In this document: positions 3,501 to 61,550 of the stretch, one piece after another | How the letters are laid out: every line of letters starts with the position of its first letter | Numbering within the stretch: position 1 is the stretch's first letter | Origin: Imbricaverruca yamaguchii | Taxonomy: Eukaryota > Arthropoda > Thecostraca > Neoverrucidae | Direction of reading: 5' to 3' | DNA: 64,000 nt | Assembly (NCBI GenBank): GCA_034440575.1 | Contig: JAOTOL010001181.1 | Span: 248,001 to 312,000 of the forward strand | Position numbers and translations under genes: made by a program | Notes under the pieces: model-generated | What the model saw: only the letters and a program-made list of their open reading frames with translations | Told to the model about the DNA's origin: nothing | Database searches by the model: none

Positions 3501-6500
3501 TTTGTGGCTTACCAGTTGTGTGGATGCCACTCTAACTCTTGGTGTTCATCCATACATTCTTCTGGGCACATCTGGACTCTGTTCTGAGGTTTTTCCACAA
3601 ATGGAGAACATACACATGAATGCATTGGTGGTTGTTTATTAATTCACCTGCACTTCACCAGAAATCACACATGCACAAATGGAATTTTATGGAATGATAT
3701 GGAAGATGGAATGTTATGAAATATGGAACGTTCAGTGGCATTAAGATCATATTCAGACTGCAGTGATCCATATTTTGCCATCTGTTGACATCTGTTGTAC
3801 TTGTGCATGCTAGCAAGCTGATATTCTTCTAATTTGGCTGGCATCTCATTTTCGGCTCCATTCCTGCCTCCTCTTGGAATGTGCCTGCAGATGACCTGAA
3901 ATAACAAATGTGTATTATCATCAATTATACTGGAAGGTTTATGTGTTAGGGGACCCAGTATGACCGAATCTTCCTCTCCATCCAAGTTATCACTATTGTA
4001 TAATGACATCTAGCTGTCTTACTAGTTAAGCATGTCTTCATCGAGCAATGCAAGGAGTGTATTTTTCCGGAGTGTATAATCCTTTGGATGGCAAAAGTTC
4101 CAAAAAAGGGCCACTTTTCCAACGCTGACCAGAACACAGTCCGGTAGACAGGTGTGACATGCCCAGAATACGGGCCCGCAGGCAAGGGAGGATAGACCAG
4201 AGCACAGTCTGACAGATGGGTAAGATATGTCAAAAATGCAAACCCACATACAGGTGAGGTTAGGTCAGAACACAGTCCTTTGGACAGGTAAGATATGTCC
4301 CGAATACAGACCCACATACGTGTGAGGTTAGTCCAGAGCACAGTCATGTGGACAGGTTAGATATGTCTGGAATACAGACCCACATACAGGTGAAATGAAC
4401 CAGAGCACAGTCCGACAGACAGGTAACATATGTCCGGAATACAGACACACATATGGGTGAAATGGACCACAACACAGTCCGACAGACGGGTAAGATATGT
4501 CAGGAATACAGATCCACATGCAGGTGAGATTAGATCAGAACGCAGTCCTACAGACATTCTCAAGAGGAAGCGGCTCTATCATCAAATTTTGAACGACACC
4601 CAACATTTTGAGGATGTATTCTATTTCAAATACATGGGCGCTATATCATCAACATGGTCGATGCGCCCTAAGGCCAAAACATATAACGAACTATTTTGGA
4701 TGCAATCTTGTGTACTCAATTCCTTCCTTTTGAGAGGTGGAGGAGTAAATGGGCAAGCAGTCGGTGTGGTTCTAGCCACCAAGCCCCCACTACTCCTCAA
4801 ACTTCGAAAGGCATCACTTGAGAGGCTCGTGGCAAAAGTGAAGAATCGAGTGTGATACTGTCTGTGATTCAGCCTAACGATAACGCAGTCGGTGAGCGGA
4901 GCCAGCTGCAGAGCATCACCTCACGCCCTCACCGGGTGCCGGCAGACTCGCCAGTACATGCAAAAGTGGATCAAGCCGGGCATGACCATGATCGAGATCT
5001 GCGACAAGCTGGAGGGCATCGCGCGCAGCACCATCGTCGAGAACGGGCTCAAGTCGGGCCTGGCATTCCCCACCGGCTGCTCGCTCAACTACTGCGCCGC
5101 CCACTACACGCCCAACGCCGGCGACAAGACGGTGCTGCAGTACGACGACGTCTGCAAGATCGACTTCGGCACTCACATCAACGGTGGGTGGCCGGCCGGC
5201 CGCGGTGTCCGGCTGCCGTGCGTGCGGTGGGCGCGCCGTGCGGCGGTGCGTTTAAGGGTAGCTGCAGCACTGACTCCGCCGATCCGCACCCAGTGTCATC
5301 GAATCGTACAGTTAATCGGACCAGCGGCGATGTGTTCGTCGACGCCACTGAAGCTCATGAGGCTTGGTGGGCGTTAGTGTGAGCATTTCCGACATTTGAA
5401 CTGTTGTTTTCCGTCTCGTTTTGCTGTGACCCCAGACGTTTTCCTCATTCTGGTGCATGTCACGAGCGTTAGTTACTTGGCGTCTGCTGTGTGGCAGCGA
5501 CCGACATTGCTCCTTCGAGTGTTGCCGTGTACCAGCCGATGGCCCACTGCTAAGCCTGGAGCATCGGACCCACCTGCACTACCACCTGCCGGGTACATTT
5601 CGCTGGTGGGGTCCACTTTGCTGGTGGGGTGTACTACACCTGTGAGGTACACTTTGCTGGTGCGGTGCACCGCACATGTTGAGTACACTTCTCAAGTGGG
5701 ATGTACCACACCTGCGGGTACACTTCACTGGTGGGGTACACCACACATGCGGGGTGCACTTCGCTGGTGAGGTGAACCACACGCTCGGGGCACACGGACG
5801 GACACCATTCACCGGACCATGCCTCCGTACCACCTTCGGTGTTACTGTGGACCTGCTGCCGTTGTCACCGGCCGTTTGCCACGTCTGTTGCCACTGGCGC
5901 CGCAGGTCGCATCATTGACTGCGCCTTCACGCTGACCTTCAACCCCAAGTACGACCGGCTTCTGGACGCCGTACGGGACGCCACCAACACCGGCATCAAG
6001 GTAACTGGTGTACAGCAGGCCATCCGGTGGTAGGTACACTACCAACACCGGCACCAAGGTAACTGATGTACAGCAGGCCATTCGGTGGTAGGCACACTAC
6101 CAACACGGACACCAAGGTAACTGGTGTACAGCAGGCCATCCGGTGGTAGGTACACTACCAACACGGACACCAAGGTAACTGGTGTACAGCAGGCCATCCG
6201 GTGGTAGGTACATTATCAACAGGGACACCAAGGTAACTGGTGTACAGCAGGCCATTCGGTGGTAGGTACATTATCAACAGGGACACCAAGGTAACTGGTG
6301 TACAGCAGGCCATTCGGTGGTAGCCCCCCCACCCCACCGACGAGGCATCACCTTTTCGTGGTGGTGGGGGGACTAAGTGCCCCAATGACCCGGCGGCCAT
6401 CATAACGGCGAGGGGTGAGACCAAGAGTGCCTCGCTCGTCCTTCCGTCCATACGGTCCCATTCCAATGGCCATGTCATCCCATCGTACATATCCTTCACC

Positions 6501-61550: not shown

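Follow-up and report, generated by a model that had tools for sequence, protein, structure and literature searches.

Introns in a barnacle genome carry minisatellites made from the exon edges that flank them. In METAP2, DYNC2I2, and PIGV, comparison of array and junction sequences confirms that a set of tandem arrays derives from splice junctions of the very introns in which they lie, and such repeats, which are called mirages in amphioxus, recur elsewhere in the genome. Over three sets of junctions, 19 of 97 bear a mirage (8/35 in the window by array homology, 2/10 in INPP5A, and 9/52 in kinesin genes). The window is the whole 64-kb stretch analysed (C948:248001-312000), taken from an assembly of 767,457,503 bases in 1430 contigs, and it contains no N anywhere.

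Exon limits were set by GT/AG sites together with one unbroken reading frame per gene, and this gave 35 splice junctions over METAP2, DYNC2I2, and PIGV; the first exons of all three genes lie upstream of the modelled parts. The genes and related features are as follows.

METAP2, forward strand: exons 393-547, 4946-5183, 5906-6000, 16194-16335, 16596-16770, and 17799-18051; continuous frame, 91% identical to Amphibalanus amphitrite METAP2 (best named match) and 80% to Daphnia.
DYNC2I2, reverse strand, 34412-25208: exons 34185-34412, 33130-33245, 31759-31871, 30776-30983, 29270-29609, 27375-27577, and 25208-25340; GT/AG sites and frame.
25208-25210, reverse strand: DYNC2I2 stop codon, counted from the translation (25220 was taken as the end of the gene in the strict-limit TRF test and in the array/junction alignment).
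PIGV, forward strand: exons 41973-42508, 42882-42996, 44149-44382, 45518-45757, 59192-59308, and 61413-61550; GT/AG sites and continuous frame, 74% identical to a Pollicipes pollicipes protein, 67% and 61% to two A. amphitrite proteins, and at most 44% to the other matches listed.
About 21-24 kb, forward strand: fourth gene, between METAP2 and DYNC2I2.
21099..21684, forward strand: 38-bp array within the fourth gene, with a putative acceptor as its seed according to the initial annotation.

The fourth gene has conserved-looking segments between 21700 and 24441 (DLELDAFPPVHFDVKSL and DLANINAQIAQAQKKVDSVFKTG), with only a sub-threshold Sec10_N match in Pfam and no match in a PDB search. Rfam and tRNA scans of the window were empty. 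Barnacle proteins are the best matches of METAP2 and PIGV, so the source is most likely a thoracican barnacle; a lancelet, initially suspected because mirages are known from that group, was rejected on these matches.

We merged 99 TRF rows by hand into 23 minisatellite arrays and aligned the array cores, from which the real junction copy had been trimmed off, with the 35 junctions by Smith-Waterman. Eight of the 23 arrays show homology to a junction, a donor in four cases and an acceptor in the other four; these score 36-75 and cross the junction, whereas the other 15 score at most 24 against any junction. In all eight cases the best junction bounds the array's own intron, the exon-proximal copy is the modelled junction itself, and the frame joins there without a break. 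The junction lies inside TRF's own limits in five arrays, and the other three are supported by homology. Two of the non-junction arrays, 55937-56129 and 60102-60460, have corrected P values of 0.026 and 0.035 (scores 23 and 24) against a junction that belongs to a different intron or gene, and we take these matches to be chance. The junction-derived arrays and their associated features are listed here.

534..569, forward strand: METAP2 exon 1 donor (exon ends at 547), seed of a 34/68-bp array, found when the window was searched with the array by blastn; Smith-Waterman score 41.
4127..4556, forward strand: METAP2 intron 1 array from the exon 1 donor, about 3.5 kb from that donor (TRF, blastn, Smith-Waterman).
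5983..6323, forward strand: 58-bp array of the METAP2 exon 3 donor (junction 6000/6001), 18 exon and 40 intron bp per unit.
14986..15100, forward strand: two more 58-bp copies of the METAP2 exon 3 array (blastn), after 8.7 kb of other sequence.
26856..27392, reverse strand: 40-bp array of the DYNC2I2 exon f donor (exon ends at 27375; unit-wrapped sequence, blastn, Smith-Waterman).
30956..31644, reverse strand: 39-bp array of the DYNC2I2 exon d acceptor (exon starts at 30983), 25 exon and 14 intron bp per unit.
32564..33153, reverse strand: 30-bp array of the DYNC2I2 exon b donor (exon ends at 33130), 24 exon and 6 intron bp per unit.
41575..41995, forward strand: 32-bp array of the PIGV exon 2 acceptor (exon starts at 41973; unit-wrapped sequence, Smith-Waterman).
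43557..44217, forward strand: 132-bp array of the PIGV exon 3 acceptor (exon starts at 44149), decoys open in frame.
60866..61427, forward strand: 62-bp array of the PIGV last-exon (E6) acceptor (exon starts at 61413; unit-wrapped sequence, Smith-Waterman).

These eight arrays bear out most of what the initial annotation had described, namely a 58-bp array seeded on the METAP2 exon 3 donor, a diverged one on its exon 1 donor, three in DYNC2I2 (30-bp donor, 39-bp acceptor, and 40-bp donor), and three on PIGV acceptors (32, 132, and 62 bp). The METAP2 exon 1 donor is the weakest of the eight, with a corrected P of 0.052. The initial annotation's statement that four genes are affected holds for three; the acceptor proposed as seed in the fourth gene was not confirmed, and that gene gained no identity from Pfam or PDB. 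The coding part of the junction is indeed copied together with the splice dinucleotide: units of the METAP2 exon 3 array (ACCAACACCGGCATCAAG/GTAACTGG and variants) join the codons for TNTGIK to the donor.

Several neighboring features of the window were seen in passing. The 8.7-kb interruption of the METAP2 58-bp array (6324-14985) contains a reverse transcriptase frame (8119-9825, reverse strand); its top database match, on a 3.9-kb JGI contig, has 98% identity and covers 89% of the query. One DYNC2I2 intron holds a 45-bp array (27590-28328) that ends about 12 bases before an acceptor and has no exon part, so that it adjoins a junction and is not a mirage. The DYNC2I2 stop codon lies within a 69-bp duplication (25087-25224), and 13 bases past the METAP2 stop codon a 36-bp array starts (18064-18404); coding ends other than splice sites thus also bear arrays. 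When 13 non-junction arrays were scored for splice-like motifs, the donor percentiles of 0.96 (5591-5782) and 0.92 (44706-45389) were not significant.

Whether junctions seed arrays more often than chance depends on the unit of counting. When finished arrays are placed at random with strict TRF limits, five are observed at junctions against 0.54-1.33 expected (P 1.7e-4 to 0.007). With one seed per array drawn uniformly over the introns, 7 of 16 arrays are junction-derived where 0.48-1.43 would be expected (P 1.5e-7 to 1.9e-4, the latter with insertions removed and arrays collapsed), a null that assumes uniform seeds and depends on the TRF limits; the PIGV exon 2 array is omitted here because the other end of its intron is not known. 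Matching seeds for GC approximately doubles the expected number, to 2.47-2.98, and leaves most of the excess (P 0.004-0.0085). Counted by site, however, 7/35 junctions have a copy no more than 3 kb away in the intron, compared with 55/168 splice-like sites within introns (Fisher P 0.16), and junctions are not repeated more than such sites because arrays occupy much of the introns; among splice-like intron sites outside arrays, 2 of 101 have a copy. A preference for exon edges is therefore present per array and absent per site, a mixed outcome. In our judgement the per-array test carries more weight, since the exon blocks the spread of an array, so that a covered junction needs a seed of its own.

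The pattern extends beyond the window. Minisatellites make up 12.3% of the first 200 kb of the home contig, and with such a share in the neighboring 200 kb, tandem duplication is common here. Among candidate exon edges on this contig, 9 of 48 have copies, with one of these being low-complexity and one the wrong donor for an INPP5A exon. In INPP5A itself, mirages occupy 2 of 10 modelled junctions, at the acceptor and the donor of a single exon (L019:8824-8979); five introns were modelled, one poorly (score -4.4), one gap is without a model, and four introns enter the array count. By eye, an exon donor labelled MINDY-3/4, for the family of a neighboring frame, and a donor of an exon that we take to be DCC-like are also repeated.

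For a broader sample we searched the genome for the kinesin motor family, which gave 126 exon matches; 28 of the 66 adjacent introns were whole in 20 of the 44 stretches wanted, two could not be modelled, and 26 make up the sample. One kinesin intron repeats codons VSKISLVDLAGSER of a KIF1A-like exon, with G for D in one copy shown, and 47 residues of this exon align to KIF1A (PDB 1i6i) with one difference. The paralogous kinesin genes L028 and L029, which share a contig and are separated by about 570 kb, both have mirages, and one exon of L028 is flanked by mirages at both edges. Across the 26 kinesin and four INPP5A introns, 11 of 29 arrays are junction-derived (seven donors and four acceptors), against 1.45-1.67 expected for uniform seeds (P 9.5e-9 to 4.3e-8) and 3.04 for GC-matched seeds (P 9.5e-6); without one of the two paralogues the non-redundant count is 10/28. 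Pooled with the window, 18 of 45 arrays (7/16 plus 11/29) derive from junctions, with about 5.7 (2.7 plus 3.0) expected at matched GC. Per site, copies crossing the junction are found at 9/52 kinesin junctions and at 35/192 splice-like sites of the same introns. The initial annotation considered repeated coincidence unlikely and suggested a process that prefers splice sites; each idea is supported by the excess of junction-derived arrays and is not supported at the level of sites, where junction copies are no commoner than copies of splice-like intron sequence.

We think it likely that these mirage minisatellites arise from short tandem duplications across exon edges that are tolerated and then undergo minisatellite turnover. 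A segment of about 20-130 bp straddling an exon-intron border would be duplicated in tandem, perhaps by slippage, unequal exchange, or end joining, with the extra copy on the intron side. In the exon-proximal copy the exon would stay complete and its splice site functional, and the duplication should therefore be tolerated for as long as this proximal site is in use, as it probably still is in the present genes. The array would then expand, contract, and homogenize like any minisatellite and leave decoy splice sites across a portion of the intron. That the units join conserved codons to a splice site argues for this origin; because the exonic part of the unit encodes residues conserved in distant animals (TNTGIK and VSKISLVDLAGSER), the copies in the intron probably derive from the exon, giving a direction from exon to intron. 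Copy numbers range from under three (two to three units in L040 and L042) to seventeen in one window array, and the two paralogous kinesin arrays, which compare two genes and not alleles, have 10.0 and 8.3 units; both the spread of array sizes and the unequal paralogues fit ongoing turnover. Two things weigh against this explanation. First, if duplication took no account of exon edges, the excess that persists after GC matching, both in the window and outside it, would not be expected. Second, the decoys have well-kept dinucleotides and are open in frame at PIGV exon 3, and could or might thus be more than tolerated by-products.

An alternative is that exon edges are true duplication hot spots, tied to transcription, splicing, or chromatin beyond base composition, a proposal whose chances we put just short of even. 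The pooled array excess favors it, as does the involvement of donors and acceptors alike. The per-site comparison does not favor it, with junction copies no commoner than those of splice-like intron sites, and the excess comes from a null with uniform seeds that depends on TRF limits and from a small sample that includes one paralogous pair. In its widest form, that exon borders are genome-wide duplication hot spots in barnacles, arisen independently of lancelets, with about one-fifth of junctions bearing a mirage and border-linked seeding beyond base composition, we advance the idea tentatively, as somewhat less probable than its negation.

The second of these difficulties bears on whether selection retains the arrays because decoys tune or buffer splicing, which we regard as unlikely. 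GT or AG is kept in 66 of 73 decoy copies, and conservation of the splice pair slightly exceeds that of the remaining column pairs (P 0.02 before any correction for multiple testing), a weak hint of some selection for, or use of, decoys. This effect is small, however, 15 of the 23 window arrays are equally good minisatellites without a junction, and among 38 decoys, all of them acceptors and one with its position off by 3 bp, 29 would introduce a stop if used. The four PIGV exon 3 decoys of the 132-bp array are open in frame and would each add 44 residues, so that this array could encode protein repeats if they were used, as they might be in this species. The repeat is absent from three aligned barnacle PIGV proteins, and it is this protein alignment that would speak for regular splicing being undisturbed.

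That the arrays are relics of intron birth, as the initial annotation suggested they could be, with introns created by tandem duplication of an AG/GT segment, is very improbable: it follows a published model (PMC4974935) and a related one proposed for mirages (PMC3087553), in the available text of both, and AG/GT is indeed read at 12 of 19 mirage junctions, but this is not a significant enrichment over 34 of 76 others (P 0.20), and the model needs both intron ends to come from one duplicated segment, whereas one end matches in the arrays tested. No array reached the threshold for a match to both ends among seven in the window and 11 outside, and in the seven window arrays with a known opposite end, that end scores 12-16 compared with 36-75 for the array's own junction.

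Mirages are a kind of repeat that is already known, here in a lineage and at a frequency (19/97 tested junctions) that appear to be new. The original paper on the amphioxus Adh mirage reportedly dates from 2002. As far as the literature found goes, two further things are new, a statistical test, whose outcome is mixed, and a test of the intron-birth model: no paper on barnacle intron minisatellites was found, the available portions of the barnacle genome literature contained no mention of such arrays that we found, and there was no arthropod mirage report among the matches listed. In prior literature, to the extent of the text available, mirages are an oddity of a few lancelet genes, and a countable rate in an arthropod makes them a testable system, suited to measuring the onset of tandem duplication at exon edges, the handling of numerous near-perfect decoys by the spliceosome, and any conversion of arrays into new introns or exons. 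Mirages may also mislead gene annotation, because the decoys resemble real exon ends.

The closest parallels are the mirages in the amphioxus globin genes BflGb6 and BflGb9, for which the accessible text cites the term from Adh3 and proposes a model of intron creation (PMC3087553), and those in PGBD5 and troponin C (PMC3902484). In the portions available, both sources describe tandem units that span the exon-intron border, on the 5' or the 3' side of the exon, and a splice signal in many but not all units, as in the 66 of 73 decoys here. Amphioxus units are 10-160 bp by the same accounts (PMC3087553, PMC3902484), and the barnacle units are 24-132 bp, with one INPP5A array at 429 according to TRF. 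The Rogers model of intron gain by AGGT tandem duplication (potato RdRp, ATP2A1, and fission yeast) likewise has a short exonic segment with a splice motif duplicated, as far as its accessible text goes, and differs in that the duplication supplies the new intron's two ends (PMC4974935), whereas in the barnacle arrays tested one end matches. Relative to the amphioxus mirages, as described in the text available, what differs is the host, a barnacle and not a cephalochordate, and that the mirage counts here take in several genes and are compared with null models.
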